Source: Terriglobia bacterium (GTDB lineage: Bacteria; Acidobacteriota; Terriglobia; Terriglobales; Acidobacteriaceae). Taken from it: DNA of 64,000 nucleotides. Where the stretch lies: NCBI GenBank assembly GCA_020072645.1, contig JAIQGK010000012.1, positions 248,001 to 312,000 on the forward strand, written 5' to 3'. Shown here piece by piece: positions 1 through 38,050 of the stretch. The position numbers were made by a program, and so were the translations under genes. Below the pieces are notes generated by a model. It had not been told where the DNA came from, made no database searches, and was given only the letters and a program-made list of their open reading frames with translations. Numbering within the stretch: the first letter of the stretch is position 1; each line of letters begins with the position of its first letter.

Positions 1-282
1 CTTGCGGAGAAATTCTTCCCGGACGGGCCTGGAACCAAGGTGCCTCTAGCAATAAATCTTGCTTTAATCACGGAGTCTGCTGAACAAACGACGTTGCTTG
101 CTGCAAATCTTGGCGGTGACTCAGATTCGGTAGCATCGATAGGTTCGGCAATCGCAGGGTCGCTTCGCCCGGAAACGGTCAACGAAAATTGGTACCGCGT
201 GGTTCAGTCTGTAAACGGCGAGGAACTCATTGACCTTGCGCAGGCTCTTGCCAAGCGCCGCTTGGCTGGCGCCTTCAAATAG
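1..282 (+). CDS. ADP-ribosylglycohydrolase family protein, C-terminal part
   Basis: The frame is open from the first base of the window, so the gene starts to the left of it and only about the last 93 codons are present. The visible part carries the motif GGDSDSVASIGSAIAG, the second metal-binding signature of the ADP-ribosylglycohydrolase (DraG/ARH) fold, where paired aspartates bind magnesium. Members of the family remove ADP-ribose from proteins or small molecules. The exact substrate cannot be told from this fragment. An internal GTG at 40 is not a credible start because the frame reads through it with family-like sequence. Confidence 0.75.
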   Translation, partial: LAEKFFPDGPGTKVPLAINLALITESAEQTTLLAANLGGDSDSVASIGSAIAGSLRPETVNENWYRVVQSVNGEELIDLAQALAKRRLAGAFK

Positions 283-314
283 GCGCAATTCTTTTCAGCA
301 TTTTCTTTCCAAAA

Positions 315-2333
315 TCATTTGACCGGGATCACGCCCAGCGCCTTATCCATATCTGCCACCTGAAACACGATGCCATCTTTCACCACGGTCTTTACGCGTC
401 GAATATCGCTGATGTGGGTCGCCGGATCGCCGTCGACGAGAATCACATCTGCGAGCTTGCCCGGAGCGATGGAGCCGAGTTCACCGTCACGCTTGACCAC
501 GCGTGCAGCCCCAAGAGTGGCAAGCTGGAGAACTTTCGGCGCGGGAATGCCGGCTTTTACATAAAGCTCAAGTTCGCGGTGAAGAGCAAAGCCGGCGAGG
601 GAATCAGTACCTGCCACGATTGGCACGCCGGAGTCATAGAACGCCTTAGCCATGTCGAGCATACGCTGAAAAGAATCCTGATAGCGCTGGTCCTGGCCGG
701 CAGGGACTGGCAGCCCGCCATAGAGAAAGCCACGCCGCACCTGCGCCGGCATGGAATCTGCCACGGCGGCGTAGCCTTGCGCCATTTTGCCGGGACGATC
801 ATCAATCATGCTCTCAAAGATGCTGAGCGTGGGATCAAGAACGATCTTGTGCTCTTTCAAAAGCTGAATGAAGTCCTGTACCTGCTCTGATTTTGGATCG
901 ATCTCAGCGCCGTGAGCGGCGACCTCAGTAAAGCGGGCCGGGGTGCGAGTGTCTTTTAGCTGTGGCATGAAGTTCAGGAAGATGAAATTCATGTGCTGAA
1001 TTTCGTCTACGCCATCACGCACGAACTGCTCCGCATTTATTCCTGAAGGAACGTGTCCGCTCACGCGCATGCCGTGGGCATGCGCCATCTCAACAATTTT
1101 GGGCAAGAGCTCAGGCTTGAGCGAGCTATAGACCTTGATCTGGATATAGCCGAGCTTGGCATAGTTATCGATTGCGGCTTTGGCTTCTTCTTCAGTATCG
1201 GCAAAAACTTTGGTTGGCCCCTGATAGGGGCCGCGACCATCAATGAATCCGGCCATTACGATACGCGGGCCGATTTCTGTCCCGGCATCGAAGCGGCTGC
1301 GCGTCTGTATGAGGAAATCAGTATCGTTGGCCAGGTCGCGGACAGAAGTTACGCCACAAGCCATGTGCAGAAGGCCATCACCGGGTGCGACGTGAACATG
1401 CATATCCCAAAGGCCGGGCATCAGGGTTTTGCCGGTGGCGTCAATGGTCTCAGCGTTTTTCGGAAGCGGCACCTGGCCGTCAGCGCCGACAGCAGTGATC
1501 TTATTGCCCGTGATGACCACAGTGCGATTCGGCAGCATTTGTGCTGATTCGGAATCGAACAGGTTGGCGTGCACGAAGACCAGAGGACTTGTTGGTTTGT
1601 GGGCAAGAGTCTGCGCCAGCTTCTTTGAGCGCTCATTGTCAAATTTGTCCTGCTCTTTAAGCAGATCGGCAGCGGCGCTTTCCCAGCCTTCTGGAATCAC
1701 GGAATTCCAGGAGGAGACAAAAGCGAAAAACTTTCCGTCCTGTTCCAGCCAGAGTGGGACGGGAGAGAACCCAAGGCCGCTGATGGCGTATTGAGCGACG
1801 GTACGCGACTGGCCATTGGCGTTGATCTTGAGATCGCCGCGCTTCTCAATGGAGGCCTCGCCTTCAGGAAGCAGAGGTAGTCTGTGTCCTGGAGCGGCGA
1901 GCAGCACCTGCGCCAACAGGCCTGTTTCTTCAGTGGCGCCGGAAATGCTGGCATAAAACGCTTTTCCGTTTGTGCTTTTGTGTCCTTCTTCAGACCGGTT
2001 CTTCCAGCTTGCGACGCCTTGCTTGAAGGAGAAACGCTCATCGACAGGCGCTTTGAGGTAGTCAACGCCGGTGATTTCAATTTCAAGCGGAATACCATCT
2101 TTGCCGATGCGAATCTTTTCATTGACGTTGGGCCCGCGGCCGCGATCGTTGAATTCAAAATGGACTTGCAGGCTGCCGTCAGGATTACGCGTGGAACTTT
2201 CATACCCGGCTTTGTTGCCCGAAAGAATAAACGTGTATCGAGCGGACTTTGCCGCTTCAGATGACGGAACCGCAGTGGTCTGAGATTGAGCGAGGGCAGC
2301 AAATATGGGGAAGAGAAGAAGGAATTTTTTCAT
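315..2333 (-). CDS. Secreted amidohydrolase with extra N-terminal domain
   Basis: Encodes 672 residues. Residues 1-17 form a signal peptide ending near AQS. Residues about 25-245 form a beta-rich N-terminal domain I do not recognise. From about 250 on it is a metal-dependent amidohydrolase: GLWDMHVHV at 307-315 supplies the HxH metal ligands (H312, H314), followed by SGHVPSG, EIQHMNF and AGTDSLAG motifs and a C-terminal GSIAPGKLADVILVDG strand, as in imidazolonepropionase-like or cyclic-dipeptide hydrolases. It probably works in the periplasm or outside the cell on a C-N bond. A second, shorter secreted amidohydrolase lies at 60420-61715. The substrate is unknown. Confidence 0.85.
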   Translation of the reverse strand: MKKFLLLFPIFAALAQSQTTAVPSSEAAKSARYTFILSGNKAGYESSTRNPDGSLQVHFEFNDRGRGPNVNEKIRIGKDGIPLEIEITGVDYLKAPVDERFSFKQGVASWKNRSEEGHKSTNGKAFYASISGATEETGLLAQVLLAAPGHRLPLLPEGEASIEKRGDLKINANGQSRTVAQYAISGLGFSPVPLWLEQDGKFFAFVSSWNSVIPEGWESAAADLLKEQDKFDNERSKKLAQTLAHKPTSPLVFVHANLFDSESAQMLPNRTVVITGNKITAVGADGQVPLPKNAETIDATGKTLMPGLWDMHVHVAPGDGLLHMACGVTSVRDLANDTDFLIQTRSRFDAGTEIGPRIVMAGFIDGRGPYQGPTKVFADTEEEAKAAIDNYAKLGYIQIKVYSSLKPELLPKIVEMAHAHGMRVSGHVPSGINAEQFVRDGVDEIQHMNFIFLNFMPQLKDTRTPARFTEVAAHGAEIDPKSEQVQDFIQLLKEHKIVLDPTLSIFESMIDDRPGKMAQGYAAVADSMPAQVRRGFLYGGLPVPAGQDQRYQDSFQRMLDMAKAFYDSGVPIVAGTDSLAGFALHRELELYVKAGIPAPKVLQLATLGAARVVKRDGELGSIAPGKLADVILVDGDPATHISDIRRVKTVVKDGIVFQVADMDKALGVIPVK

Positions 2334-2822: not shown

Positions 2823-4253
2823 ATGACACAAAATCAAAATCTTTTCTTTCAGAAATTTGGCATTACTCCAAACGATCTACAGCGCTACCTGGGCGAGGCG
2901 CTTTCCGCCGGGGGCGATTATGCCGATTTGTACTTTGAATACCTAACATCCACTTCCATCAGCGTGGATGAGTCGATCGTGAAATCCGCATCGCAGGGGA
3001 TTTCCGCCGGCTGCGGTGTGCGCGTATTGGCCGGCGAGCGCACGGGCTATGCCTATACAGACGATCTTGCCCCGGAAAAAATTCTGCGCGCGGCACGGAC
3101 TGCGGCGCTGATTGCGCGCGGACCGGCCAAGAGTCCTATTGAAGGATTTAAGGAGAATTTGAATCACCAGCTATATCCCGTCGCTTCACCTTCTGCCGAT
3201 GCGGACATTGCAGCGAAGCTGGAGCTGGTGATGCGAGCGGACCGCGCCGCGCGAGCTTATGATCCGCGCGTGGTGCAAGTGCGGGCCGGTTATTTTGATG
3301 AGATGCGCCAGATCCTGGTGATTGGCTCAGACGGGACTTTTGCCACTGATCTACAGCCGATGGCGCGGTTCACCGTGAACACGATTGCCAAGTCTGGCGA
3401 GAATTCCGCCAAAGGCGCAGCCGGTGGTGGCGGACGTGTAGGCATTGATTTCTTCCTGACCGACAAGACCCCAGAGCACTTTGCGAAGGATGCCGCGCGG
3501 CAGGCCATTATTCAGTTGGGCGCGGTTGAAGCTCCTGCGGGTGAGATGGAAGTTGTGCTGGGACCGGGCTGGCCGGGAATCCTGCTGCATGAAGCCATTG
3601 GTCACGGACTGGAAGCGGATTTCAATCGCAAAGGGACATCGGCTTTTTCCGGCATGGTGGGCAAGCGAGTTGCGTCAGACAAATGCACAGTCGTCGATAA
3701 CGGCACGCTGCCTTCGCGACGCGGATCAATCAACGTGGATGATGAGGGGTCGCCGACGCAGAACACCGTGTTGATCGAAAAAGGAATTCTGAAAGGCTAC
3801 CTGAGCGACAAGCTTTCCGCGAAGCTGATGGGAATGCCAGACACCGGCAATGGACGCCGTGAAAGTTACGCGCATATTCCCATGCCGCGCATGACCAATA
3901 CTTACATGCTGGCGGGCGATGATTCTCCGGAAGACATTATTCGATCTGTAAAGCGCGGCGTTTACGCGGTGAACTTTGGCGGCGGCCAGGTGGACATTAC
4001 CAACGGCAAATTTGTCTTTTCCGCGTCTGAAGCTTACATGATTGAGAACGGTCACGTAACCGCGCCGTTGAAAAACTGCACGCTGATTGGCAACGGCCCG
4101 GATGCACTGACGAAAGTCTCAATGGTGGGCAACGATCTTGAGCTTGACGAAGGTGTTGGCACTTGCGGCAAGGATGGACAGTCCGTGCCCGTGGGCGTGG
4201 GCATCCCCACGCTGAAGCTGGACAGCATGACCGTGGGCGGCACCGCAAGATAA
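2823..4253 (+). CDS. tldD: Metalloprotease TldD
   Basis: A 476-residue protein of the TldD/PmbA family. The zinc motif HEAIGHGLEAD begins at H256, with H261 the second ligand; this HExxxH helix is the hallmark of the catalytic TldD subunit. TldD and TldE form a heterodimer that degrades unfolded peptides and, in enterobacteria, matures microcin B17 and degrades the CcdA antitoxin. The stop codon overlaps the next start (TAATG), so the two subunits are translationally coupled. Family length and the order tldD then tldE are as expected. There is a graspetide cluster 33 kb away, but nothing in the sequence ties this protease to it. Confidence 0.95.
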   Translation: MTQNQNLFFQKFGITPNDLQRYLGEALSAGGDYADLYFEYLTSTSISVDESIVKSASQGISAGCGVRVLAGERTGYAYTDDLAPEKILRAARTAALIARGPAKSPIEGFKENLNHQLYPVASPSADADIAAKLELVMRADRAARAYDPRVVQVRAGYFDEMRQILVIGSDGTFATDLQPMARFTVNTIAKSGENSAKGAAGGGGRVGIDFFLTDKTPEHFAKDAARQAIIQLGAVEAPAGEMEVVLGPGWPGILLHEAIGHGLEADFNRKGTSAFSGMVGKRVASDKCTVVDNGTLPSRRGSINVDDEGSPTQNTVLIEKGILKGYLSDKLSAKLMGMPDTGNGRRESYAHIPMPRMTNTYMLAGDDSPEDIIRSVKRGVYAVNFGGGQVDITNGKFVFSASEAYMIENGHVTAPLKNCTLIGNGPDALTKVSMVGNDLELDEGVGTCGKDGQSVPVGVGIPTLKLDSMTVGGTAR

Positions 4254-5635
4254 TGGCAACCAATACGCAAACAATCACTGAAGTTGACGCAGAGCTGCGT
4301 GATCTGGCGGTCAGCGTGGTCTCACGCGCCATCAAGGCTGGAGCAACCGCGGCTGACGCTGTGGTCCGGGAAAGCTCGGAGTTCTCCACGGTGGTGCGCA
4401 TGGGCGAAGTTGAGACTCTGAAAGAATCAGGATCGCGCGCCATTGGGCTGCGGACGTTTCTTGGACATCGCACGGCGAGCACCTATTCCAGTGACTTCTC
4501 TAAAGACGGAATCCAGCGGCTGATCAACGGAGCGCTTGAGCTGGCGCGCGTAACTTCTGAAGATATTTACGCGGGGATTCCGGAGCCGGACCAGCTTGGC
4601 TCTGTGCCGGGCGATCTCCAGCTTTATTACGACGATGTTTATTCTCTTCCGCCTGAGCAGCGCATTGACTACGCGCGACGGGCCGAACGCGCAGCGCTGG
4701 AAGCCGATCCGCGAATGAAAAATTCTGATGGCGGCACCTTTGATGCTGCCATTGGTCACAAGGTGCTGGCCAACTCGCATGGCTTTGTGGGCGAATTTCG
4801 CCGGTCGTATTGCTCTGTTTCTGCCGCGCCGATTGCGCAGGATGAAAACGGCAACATGCAGCGCGATTCCTGGTACTCGTTGGCCCGCACGCTGGCAAAG
4901 CTGGAATCTCCTGAATCCGTGGGACGTGAAGCGGCGCGCCGCACTTTGCGCCGGCTGGGCTCGCGCAAGATTGCTTCCACGCAGGTCCCAATCGTGCTTG
5001 ATCCCATGGTTGCGGAATCGATTCTGGATAACATTTTTGACGCGGTTGATGGCTCGGCGGTTTATCGGCAATCGTCGTTCCTGGCCGGCAAACTGGGAGA
5101 GCAGGTAGCGGCCAGCAACATTACGGTCGTTGACGATGGCACAATGCCTGGCGGATTCGGCACTGAACCTTTTGACGGCGAAGGCGTACCCACACGGCGA
5201 ACCGTGGTCATCGAAAATGGCGTGCTCAAGTCTTACCTGCTGAATACTTACACGGCGAAAAAATTGGGGATGAAGACTACCGGCAACGCTTCGCGCGGGT
5301 TGGCGGCAACGCCGGGGATCGGCAGTGGAAATTTTTATCTGCAAAAAGGTGATCGCACGCCGCAGCAGATTATCGGGAACATTAAGCAGGGACTGTATGT
5401 GTTCCAGTTTCTCGGCTTTGGCGTGAACATGGTTACCGGCGATTTTTCCCGCGGCGTGAGCGGCCTGTGGATTGAAAACGGCGAGCTTACTTATCCGGTG
5501 GAAGAGGTCACTATTGCCGGGAATCTTAAGGACATGCTGAATAACATCTCTGAGATTGGCAATGACCTGGAATTTCGGGGCTCGACCGCCGCGCCCACGC
5601 TGCGGATTGACGGCATGACCATCGCGGGAGAATAG
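4253..5635 (+). CDS. pmbA: TldE/PmbA family protein
   Basis: A 460-residue TldE (PmbA) homologue, the partner of the TldD subunit just upstream. It shares the family fold (an N-terminal segment with VVRESSEFSTVVR and a C-terminal region with GFGVNMVTGDFSRGVSG) but lacks the HExxxH zinc motif, as expected of TldE. The start was set at the ATG at 4253, which overlaps the tldD stop; a longer in-frame reading from 4163 would lie inside tldD and has no family-like sequence. Together the pair forms a cytosolic peptidase. Confidence 0.93.
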   Translation: MATNTQTITEVDAELRDLAVSVVSRAIKAGATAADAVVRESSEFSTVVRMGEVETLKESGSRAIGLRTFLGHRTASTYSSDFSKDGIQRLINGALELARVTSEDIYAGIPEPDQLGSVPGDLQLYYDDVYSLPPEQRIDYARRAERAALEADPRMKNSDGGTFDAAIGHKVLANSHGFVGEFRRSYCSVSAAPIAQDENGNMQRDSWYSLARTLAKLESPESVGREAARRTLRRLGSRKIASTQVPIVLDPMVAESILDNIFDAVDGSAVYRQSSFLAGKLGEQVAASNITVVDDGTMPGGFGTEPFDGEGVPTRRTVVIENGVLKSYLLNTYTAKKLGMKTTGNASRGLAATPGIGSGNFYLQKGDRTPQQIIGNIKQGLYVFQFLGFGVNMVTGDFSRGVSGLWIENGELTYPVEEVTIAGNLKDMLNNISEIGNDLEFRGSTAAPTLRIDGMTIAGE

Positions 5636-32558: not shown

Positions 32559-33341
32559 GTGAGCTCGCATTTCATCCTTCTTTTTCTCGCTGCCGCAGCC
32601 GGTGGCACGGTGAATTCTGTCGCCGGAGGCGGCGGGTTTATTGCCTTTCCCTCGCTGCTTTTTTCCGGCGTGCCTTCCATCAATGCCAATGCCACTGGCA
32701 CAGTCGCCCTGTGGCCCGGGACGCTGGCTTCCACTGGCGCATATCGCAAGGCGCTAAGCGCGGAACTGTTCAAGCGCATCCTGCCCCTGATCATCATTAC
32801 GTTTCTCGGTAGCATCGTCGGCTCGGTGCTGCTGCTCAAGACTCGGCAAGCGACCTTTGACAAGATGATTCCCTGGCTGCTGCTGGGCGCCACGTTGTTA
32901 TTTACCTTCAGCGGCAAAGTCACCTCCTGGATCAACCGCCACCACTCTGAAGGTGGCCCTTCGGCGATGCGGGTGATCGGCGTCACCCTTTTGCAGGCCT
33001 GCGCCGCTGTTTACATCGGATACTTTGGCGCCGGCGTCGGTATCGTGATGCTTGCGCTGCTGGCGATGATGGGCATTGAAAACATCCACAGCATGAACGG
33101 TCTCAAGACCCTGCTGGCCACCTGCGGAAATGCCGTTGCCGTGACGGTATTCATCGTGGCGCGGGCCGTCTTCTGGCCGCAGGCCCTGGTCATGATCTTT
33201 GGCGGAGCTCTGGGCGGATATGTGGGAGCCTGGTACGCGCAAAAGATGGATCCCAAAAGCGTGCGTTACGTTGTGATCACTATCGGCTGCAGCATGACGG
33301 CCTATTTCTTCTGGCGGGTGTATTTGCGAAATGGGATTTGA
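32559..33341 (+). CDS. TauE/SafE family sulfite/anion exporter
   Basis: A 260-residue membrane protein starting at a GTG, with about eight hydrophobic segments. The first helix region AAAAGGTVNSVAGGGGFIAFPSLL is the TauE/SafE signature, repeated in the second half as QACAAVYIGYFGAGVGIVML. Family members move sulfite, sulfonates or other small organic acids. The substrate here is unknown. No sulfur-metabolism gene is adjacent. Confidence 0.88.
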   Translation: MSSHFILLFLAAAAGGTVNSVAGGGGFIAFPSLLFSGVPSINANATGTVALWPGTLASTGAYRKALSAELFKRILPLIIITFLGSIVGSVLLLKTRQATFDKMIPWLLLGATLLFTFSGKVTSWINRHHSEGGPSAMRVIGVTLLQACAAVYIGYFGAGVGIVMLALLAMMGIENIHSMNGLKTLLATCGNAVAVTVFIVARAVFWPQALVMIFGGALGGYVGAWYAQKMDPKSVRYVVITIGCSMTAYFFWRVYLRNGI

Positions 33342-36868: not shown

Positions 36869-37147
36869 ATGACAGAGAACAAACTTCCTGATTTCTCAAC
36901 TCTCGCTATAGGCGAAGAGGGCCACACGACGACGATCACGGGCGAAGAAGATTTCGCAACGCACGCTGCAACGGAACGCACGCTTCAAGCAACGACACTG
37001 CCGATTAGTGAAGAGACAACGACTTTCATCTCTGGAGAAGAGCTCACGACTGAAGCCCTTGGAGAAGAAGGTCCGACTACGGCAGATGGAGAGAACCCAT
37101 CTCCGGCCGATTTCAGCCGAAAAGGCGGGCCCTTCGGCGCCTACTAA
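36869..37147 (+). CDS. Graspetide (omega-ester peptide) precursor
   Basis: A 92-residue precursor peptide with at least five TTxxxxEE-type repeats, the core motif of plesiocin-like (group 2) graspetides: STLAIGEE (10-17, first Thr replaced by Ser), TTTITGEE (20-27), TTLPISEE (42-49), TTFISGEE (51-58) and TTEALGEE (60-67). A degenerate unit TTADGE follows at 70-75, and a worn unit may sit near 31-37. Repeats are spaced about 10 residues apart. In the family, the ligase joins the Thr hydroxyls to the Glu side chains as esters, giving linked hairpin rings. The N-terminus (MTENKLPDF) would be a very short leader, and the C-terminus (FSRKGGPFGAY) a follower. The ATP-grasp gene starts 27 bases later. 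GAGG lies six bases before the ATG. Confidence 0.85.
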   Translation: MTENKLPDFSTLAIGEEGHTTTITGEEDFATHAATERTLQATTLPISEETTTFISGEELTTEALGEEGPTTADGENPSPADFSRKGGPFGAY

Positions 37148-37174
37148 ACACGTGGGTGCCAAGGCTGGTTCAGA

Positions 37175-38050
37175 ATGACGCTCCTGCTGGCTGGCGGTCA
37201 AGACGATCCTAATCTGGCCGTTCTGGCGCATGCCGCTCAAAGAGCGAATGTTGAGCTGCTGGACTTGCGTCTGCCTGCCTCGGCGAGTCCTGCCTTCTGC
37301 TGGAATCCCGCAGAACGCGTGGCGCACTTTGCCGGCAAAGAGCTCAAGGCCACAGCGGCATTCATTCGCCATGACGTGTTCAGAGGAATGCAGGATCCCC
37401 GTCCTGAGGTTTCGGCGCGAGCGTCCGCCTGGTACCACACAATGATGGGCTGGCTTCTGTCTGAGCCGCGCGTCCGCATCTTCAATCGCGAGATGCGTCA
37501 GTCGGCAACCAATAAGCCAGCCGCGTTGGTGCTCGCCAGCGAGGCCGGACTGCAAATACCGCCAACTAGGATCACCAATCAGGTGGGCAGCTTCCGCGCC
37601 GAGCAGCTTGACTCCATGATTGCCAAGCCGGTGGGTGGCGGCGACTATTGTTATTCTCTTGCTGAAGCTGTAGCCAAAACCGATCTGCGCGACGGAGTGG
37701 CGGCCAGTCCGGCGATTGTGCAAAAGCGCCTGGTGCCGCCGGAAGTGCGCATCTACGTGATTGGCGCTGCCGATTTCGCTTTTGAAGTCCGCAGCCCATC
37801 GTTGGATTATCGCGTGAACCAGGATGCAGAACTGATCCTTCTGCCTCACGTCCCCCCAGAAGTCTCACGGCTGCGCAGCCTCATGTCCCGCCTGGGACTC
37901 GATTTCGGAGCAGCCGATTTCAAGACCGATCCGGAAACGGGCCAACTGGTCTTCCTGGAACTGAATACTTCGCCCATGTTTGCCCGTTTCGACCAGGTTA
38001 GCGGCGGCAAAGTGTGCGCCGCCATTATCCGCGAACTGACTGCGGCATAA
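37175..38050 (+). CDS. Graspetide-type ATP-grasp ligase
   Basis: A 291-residue ATP-grasp enzyme of the MvdC/MvdD/PsnB kind, which forms ester or amide bonds between side chains of a precursor peptide. Seen in order: N-terminal domain (residues 1-110), SATNKPAALVLASEAGLQIP (110-129), the ATP lysine region AKPVGGGDY (150-158), QKRLVPPEVRIYVIG (183-197), and the catalytic, Mg-binding end DFGAADFKTDPETGQLVFLE (243-262) then LNTSPMFARFD. The precursor lies just upstream with a 27-base gap. No protease, transporter or acetyltransferase is adjacent, so export and trimming must come from elsewhere. obgE follows. Confidence 0.88.
   Translation: MTLLLAGGQDDPNLAVLAHAAQRANVELLDLRLPASASPAFCWNPAERVAHFAGKELKATAAFIRHDVFRGMQDPRPEVSARASAWYHTMMGWLLSEPRVRIFNREMRQSATNKPAALVLASEAGLQIPPTRITNQVGSFRAEQLDSMIAKPVGGGDYCYSLAEAVAKTDLRDGVAASPAIVQKRLVPPEVRIYVIGAADFAFEVRSPSLDYRVNQDAELILLPHVPPEVSRLRSLMSRLGLDFGAADFKTDPETGQLVFLELNTSPMFARFDQVSGGKVCAAIIRELTAA

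Follow-up and report, generated by a model that had tools for sequence, protein, structure and literature searches.

A C-terminal PFG tail as the probable ligase-recognition element of a two-gene graspetide system in a Terriglobia bacterium

Among the described graspetide systems, the ligase ThfB has been called truly leader-dependent, with RPFG as the key recognition motif in the leader of its substrate ThfA; in work reported in 2026 this leader was relocated by engineering to the C-terminus and still worked at about half the rate (PMC13003496). Protease inhibition by plesiocin is reported to rise with the number of cyclised motifs, and an NHLM-type transporter is described as often co-occurring with the plesiocin group (PMC13097080). 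N-terminal leader motifs, among them the loose motif P-h-h-x(1,2)-h, were extracted in a large survey as an aid to precursor prediction (PMC8939145). Here we describe a locus in a stretch of 64,000 nucleotides from a Terriglobia bacterium (contig JAIQGK010000012.1, positions 248,001 to 312,000; "the window" denotes this whole stretch), in which a 92-residue repeat peptide is encoded on the same strand as an ATP-grasp ligase and 27 bases ahead of it, a spacing confirmed by the coordinates of the open reading frames (ORFs). This gene pair is probably a follower-directed graspetide system, in which the ligase would dock on a PFG tail at the C-terminus of the precursor and close Thr-Glu esters. 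Sequence, fold and neighbourhood mark it as a graspetide system, one that would work like plesiocin yet represent a new variant directed naturally by a portable C-terminal tag, a reading that we hold with reasonable confidence.

The window peptide ends in RKGGPFGAY. An initial annotation, made from the sequence alone, had suggested aligning precursors of relatives for conservation of the repeats; the number of cores proved to vary, and the tail GPFGAY, which that annotation had missed, is conserved best. When five Terriglobia precursors are aligned, no column is invariant apart from M1, T2, one E and the final six residues. Relatives of the ligase were placed by a 38-row tree, in which the 14 rows of the window ligase family form one group with support of 100/99 against 24 others, the latter including partial segments of PsnB, PruB (9bou) and AMdnB as well as the RimK-like L084; the fragment L086 was left out. 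With L088 and L089, which match the family profile and are not in the tree, 16 distinct loci were counted (the window, L002, L007, L008, L009, L010, L011, L015, L020, L021, L022, L023, L025 and L026 being the 14 placed by tree). At 12 of the 16, in Acidobacteriota and Myxococcota, the adjacent precursor ends in PFG followed by zero to two residues: GPFGAY in the window, L002, L007, L008, L009 and L010, GPFGAF in L020, NPFGAF in L022, NPFGGF in L015, GPFGRF in L025, NPFGSF in L026 and GPFG in L011.

In the genomes examined, the tail is exclusive to this clade. As controls, 22 further ATP-grasp loci from these genomes were examined over about 1.5 kb on the ligase strand, and none has a PFG tail. 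These controls are 23 loci minus L068, which is the clade ligase L021 itself, and are not independent, since eleven come from one Terriglobales ligase group; one is the RimK-like L084, and at another, L073, an ORF ending in MPFGGDLH is probably due to chance. Thirteen whole genomes were scanned with a tail pattern in which the aromatic residue must follow Gly or Ala, and which therefore does not capture tails of the type found in L011, L025 and L026. It gave 11 matches, nine of them terminated by a stop, and all nine are precursors adjoining a clade ligase; the remaining two lack a stop and run into TGG, and the backward control also gave two. By this pattern, no orphan tagged precursors were found elsewhere in the 13 genomes. 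A query for repeat arrays returned a single further strong array, that of L047, whose precursor carries a leader but lacks the tail. Its genome, G776, holds both designs side by side, a leader-bearing TTLAIGEE peptide with a PsnB-like ligase (L047/L076) and a tail-type array with a clade ligase (L020).

The arrays preceding the tail range from one unit (L009) to 23-26 units (L015), pattern counts differing slightly. In L020 the array of about a dozen units belongs to a tyrosinase-like protein (Table 1), which also matches NF047834 (6.7e-81, below cut-off). At the positions that we take to be its copper ligands, the CuA histidines look replaced and the domain may be inactive. L011 carries a PrcB_C domain and L010 a weaker match to this family, and their ORFs align at 44% over 212 residues. 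The tyrosinase-like and PrcB-like fusions thus indicate that array and tail have been joined to unrelated N-termini.

Under the proposed mechanism, the ligase would bind the precursor through its C-terminal PFG-x-[YF] tail (GPFGAY in the window), use ATP to activate the Glu side chains in every TTxxxGEE unit, and then close Thr-Glu esters, by which the array would become a string of hairpin-like bicycles. Docking on the tail is probable by analogy with the use of the RPFG leader motif by ThfB, and processing of many cores into hairpins is suggested by analogy with plesiocin. Such docking would leave the N-terminus free, so that cores could start at residue 10, run to about 25 copies or be attached to a folded domain of the tyrosinase-like or PrcB-like kind. 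As neither a leader nor a protease or exporter was noticed, the product would be expected to stay uncleaved within the cell until lysis, a point that is speculative. It would be multi-headed, perhaps a protease inhibitor like plesiocin.

Several observations weigh against this reading. The PFG tail is not universal, as L088 and L089 end in AFGEK, and no precursor adjoins the ligase of L021 or L023 in the stretch examined. In L011 the PrcB_C domain is out of frame with most of the array and the tail, reflecting a frameshift in that metagenome-assembled genome. AlphaFold left the tail disordered in a read-through precursor-ligase chain, and in L022 only P22-F23 within the tail reach a predicted local distance difference test (pLDDT) score of 50, both models having a shallow alignment and a short linker. 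Conservation of the tail could also have another cause. Perhaps the pair does encode a graspetide, but one whose PFG tail either works as part of the product or is read by some other host factor, for degradation, export or target binding, while the ligase recognises the cores themselves. Extreme C-termini often carry degrons and export signals, which is where the tail sits, and neither AlphaFold model, weak as both are, docked it. Repeated cores could supply the affinity, as ThfB is reported to interact somewhat with its core, without modification (PMC13003496). However, the distribution of the tail follows that of the clade ligases rather than that of the hosts, the tail being found neither at the 22 control loci nor in any other stop-terminated pattern match, and it resembles the RPFG of the ThfA leader. 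We consider this alternative unlikely, and recognition of the tail by the ligase the better account.

The precursor itself contains five core units (Table 1). The five TTxxxxEE repeats initially described are there as units, a number never reached in 200,000 shuffled versions of the peptide (maximum 3, mean 0.10 [ST]TxxxxEE units), although the first begins with ST, so that four are strict TTxxxxEE and one is STxxxxEE. In the nearest relative, L007, the ligase is 79% identical to that of the window, and the peptide has only 52 residues with two units and the same tail. The ratio of non-synonymous to synonymous change (pN/pS) against this relative is 0.29 over the first 40 precursor codons, close to the 0.23 of the ligase; the precursor therefore looks like a real, constrained gene. 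As expected of a graspetide precursor, it adjoins the ligase and has Thr/Ser/Lys and Asp/Glu residues placed for side-chain rings, and such cores recur beside the relatives.

The first unit begins at residue 10, after MTENKLPDF, and what had been called a very short leader is not recognisable as a leader; the conserved element is instead the C-terminal tail. It is very improbable that the locus encodes an ordinary plesiocin-group (group 2) graspetide with MTENKLPDF as a short, degenerate leader. The core type is that of plesiocin and the initial M-T is conserved within the genus, but no motif common to the N-termini across the tail clade was seen by eye. None of nine non-fused precursors has a G[GAS] before its first core, a check that left out L010 and L011 (start not found), whereas both leader-bearing comparators, L047 and L091, have it; the N-terminal leader with a double-glycine-type site that characterises the plesiocin group is lacking from the window precursor. 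The motif P-h-h-x(1,2)-h matches once in L022 and in none of the other eight non-fused precursors, and, as it is missing from L047 and L091 too, it does not discriminate. In the tree, the PsnB segment pairs with L076 at 99/99, outside the window clade. Simple membership in the plesiocin group was rejected on this placement and on the missing G[GAS] site. The initial label "plesiocin-like" suits the repeats and the predicted chemistry; the anatomy of the system does not fit it.

The ligase has no match in Pfam. Its best NCBIfam match is TIGR04187 (4.3e-25, 88.6 bits, under the 350-bit cut-off), followed by MvdC and MvdD, and its best PDB sequence match is 7drm (PsnB, 6.5e-12). The C-terminal ending typical of graspetide ligases, to which the initial annotation had pointed, is present (DFKTDPETGQLVFLELNTSPMFARFDQ). 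The predicted model has a pLDDT above 90 over most of the chain, and the first 31 PDB rows of its fold search are all graspetide ligases (PsnB at 1.4e-17, PruB, AMdnB, MdnC, MdnB and 7mgv CdnC). Profile, fold and tree support the window ligase as a graspetide-type macrocyclase, in line with the original call, though TIGR04187 stays under its cut-off. Within the clade, L023 sits on a long branch and has MvdD as its best NCBIfam match by a small margin (29.7 vs 28.0 bits). That the enzyme is a RimK/glutathione-type ligase adding amino acids to a repeat protein is highly implausible and was rejected on profile scores, tree and fold ranking: rimK_fam scores weakly in four members (16-35 bits, far under the 143-bit cut-off; 0.0044 and 16.4 bits against 143.4 for the window ligase) where TIGR04187 reaches 64-97 bits, the LysX, ArgX and RimK structures that match the model start at rank 32, below the 31 graspetide rows and with one further MdnB chain (5ig8_B, rank 44) amid RimK chains, and the RimK-like control L084 (NF007764 354.7 bits, rimK_fam 248.5 bits) falls outside the clade.

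At E<=1e-30, relatives were found in 4 of 398 genomes of the bacterial family, all in the genus of the window and with its own genome included, and at E<=1e-20 in 2 of 297 genomes across the phylum, again including its own. At the latter threshold, the class to which G664 belongs yielded relatives in at least 6 of 317 genomes, and that of G611 in at least 3 of 148. The profile at 1e-30 gave at least 3 of 377 genomes in the phylum of G664 (Myxococcota, as L010 and L011 are listed there) and at least 4 of 396 in that of the window, two of these reading as PsnB-like with leaders; L091 and L092, read by eye as being of this type, were not counted. The genome samples overlap and few candidates were scored per genome (six in the profile searches, seven in the G664-class search), so these figures are lower bounds. 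The expectation that relatives of the ligase adjoin a TTxxxxEE peptide was borne out in part. Strict units lie beside 10 of the 16 ligases, window included; L088 and L089 have two KTMAIPEE units each, L002 and L008 a single ITTNLLEE that can be read as TTxxxEE, and L021 and L023 are the two without a precursor. On the 5' side of the ligase, L088 and L089 also share a conserved SecB-like protein (by eye; the L088 copy is without a Pfam match) and a HigA-like regulator (by eye).

In relatives from two genomes, G611 and G1047, the ligase is followed by HopA1 (PF17914, 4.9e-31 and 9.6e-35) and an APH-type kinase (PF01636, 7.6e-10 and 5.8e-11); the two are fused in G611 and encoded separately in G1047. 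No such pair was seen next to the window genes. A HopA1/APH-type pair is reported to dehydrate Ser/Thr in class V lanthipeptides (PMC9486802), and its position beside the ligase in two relatives would suggest hybrid products. At the two HopA1/APH loci, 35 of 40 counted units have Thr at position 3 of the eight-residue core, compared with 4 of 59 in the eight other precursors counted; the two loci are sisters and amount to one evolutionary observation. TTT-type units (TTTxxGEE) number 22 in L015 and 7 in L025, the precursors of these two loci, 2 in L020 and 1 in the window, with none in the other precursors. From this recount only the TTT counts were used, as overlapping matches inflated its unit totals for L015. 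Because the precursors of the two relatives have no Cys, dehydrobutyrine without thioethers would be the likely outcome. Six units at these loci, however, fit TTxxxEE only, and the core there may be one residue shorter instead of one Thr richer. On account of these six units, our estimate of the following reading fell from somewhat short of even to tentative: a portable natural PFG-x-aromatic C-terminal tag would make whatever precedes it a graspetide substrate, be it a free peptide, an array of about 25 bicycles or an array on a folded protein, and in some acidobacteria HopA1/APH would also phosphorylate and dehydrate an extra Thr in or ahead of each core, yielding an ester-ring/dehydrobutyrine hybrid polymer.

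The gene pair of the window lies between VOC (glyoxalase) genes upstream and obgE downstream, the flanks that the initial annotation had described. No dedicated transporter or protease for ribosomally synthesised and post-translationally modified peptides (RiPPs) was noticed by eye among the listed ORFs of 33-42 kb, the Pfam scan covering seven window proteins, and no NHLM-type transporter was noticed beside the pair among the same ORFs, the rest of the genome not having been searched for one. A TauE/SafE-type permease (Pfam) is encoded at 32559-33341, about 3.5 kb upstream, with five genes between, read by eye. A scan for promoters returned nothing promoter-like, and terminator matches were no more frequent than expected by chance. 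Between the window and its relatives, no flanking ORFs of 80 or more residues are shared at E<=1e-10, with about 1.5 kb of flank compared for most relatives. Precursor stop and ligase start share a reading frame without a further stop between them (37145-37174), so that read-through of the stop would give a fusion; L007 and L022 have the same arrangement. The genome of the window (G000; 6.4 Mb, 42 contigs) contains a second copy of the ligase, L002, 70% identical to the first. It also encodes four TIGR04187-type ligases of one Terriglobales group (L059, L071, L078 and L085), and nearby peptides, read by eye, have a leader like NRVLxRxxARELTxxEVExVxGG and make up a separate RiPP family.

Table 1. 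Coordinates of the predicted features in the window and, for entries beginning with L, at the respective related locus.
Feature	Position	Strand	Basis or remark
Graspetide precursor gene	36869..37147	+	92-residue ORF; no recognisable leader; repeat array and C-terminal tail
Core unit 1, STLAIGEE, residues 10-17	36896..36919	+	Sequence; STLALGEE in L007
Core unit 2, TTTITGEE, residues 20-27	36926..36949	+	Sequence; TTSIIGEE in L007
Core unit 3, TTLPISEE, residues 42-49	36992..37015	+	Sequence
Core unit 4, TTFISGEE, residues 51-58	37019..37042	+	Sequence
Core unit 5, TTEALGEE, residues 60-67	37046..37069	+	Sequence
Degenerate unit TTADGEN, residues 70-76	37076..37096	+	Sequence; putative as core
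GPFGAY tail, residues 87-92, proposed follower/ligase docking tag	37127..37144	+	Conservation in relatives, pattern scan
Graspetide-type ATP-grasp macrocyclase (predicted ester ligase) gene	37175..38050	+	291-residue ORF; profile, PDB sequence match, fold, tree
L047 leader-bearing plesiocin-type precursor, TTLAIGEE units	1378-1638	+	Adjoins L076 ligase; useful natural control
L020 tyrosinase-like protein ending in about a dozen TTLAVGEE-type units plus GPFGAF tail	121-1491	+	Pfam Tyrosinase 6.6e-30
L010 core array fused to PrcB_C-like domain	3970-4983	+	PrcB_C 0.0051, below cut-off
L011 PrcB_C N-terminal domain and core array	4019-4980	+	PrcB_C 4.8e-6, above cut-off
HopA1 lyase and APH kinase region directly after graspetide ligase	L094 7458-9593; L095 5503-7535	-	Pfam

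If the ligase does read the PFG tail, this natural follower-type clade would show that evolution has already made the C-terminal arrangement that was engineered for ThfA, using a tag as small as 3-6 residues. Genome mining would gain a new handle, as searches for N-terminal leaders would miss such precursors, above all the folded-protein fusions, and the short C-terminal tag could serve to staple peptides and proteins. Judged from gene content, the HopA1/APH neighbours suggest that ester rings could be combined with dehydroamino acids.

No natural follower-type, tyrosinase-linked or HopA1-linked graspetide was found in the parts of the open-access literature searched; group surveys in subscription journals may list some of the precursors. 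One paper that contains both "graspetide" and "HopA1" appears, in its accessible parts, to treat them apart (PMC10604976). Among the known systems, class V lanthipeptides with LanK/LanY (e.g. CaoK/CaoY) share HopA1 and APH with the relatives in G611 and G1047, where they stand next to the ligase, but the pair is not seen at the window and those precursors are the ones without Cys. Corallotide (group 15, CorA/CorB) is similar in having a large myxobacterial precursor with several separate modified repeats; it differs in its KxxxD lactams and oxygenase, in place of TTxxxxEE esters, and the accessible parts of the report mention no C-terminal tail for ligase recognition (PMC13097080). Plesiocin (group 2, PsnA2/PsnB) shares the tandem TTxxxxEE cores and the ligase fold, PsnB being the best structural match, whereas the precursors that accompany PsnB-like ligases and carry a leader begin with ELFIE.L..VTGG (L047, and L091 by eye) and the window precursor has no such leader and carries a C-terminal PFG tail. 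Fuscimiditide and the graspimiditides (ThfA/ThfB) share a PFG-containing motif, with a recognition role reported for RPFG there and proposed here. In ThfA, as described, the motif lies in an N-terminal leader of 67 residues and the cores are T...D stem-loops (PMC12291112), whereas the window precursor has TTxxxGEE cores and a natural tail of 3-6 residues at the extreme C-terminus.
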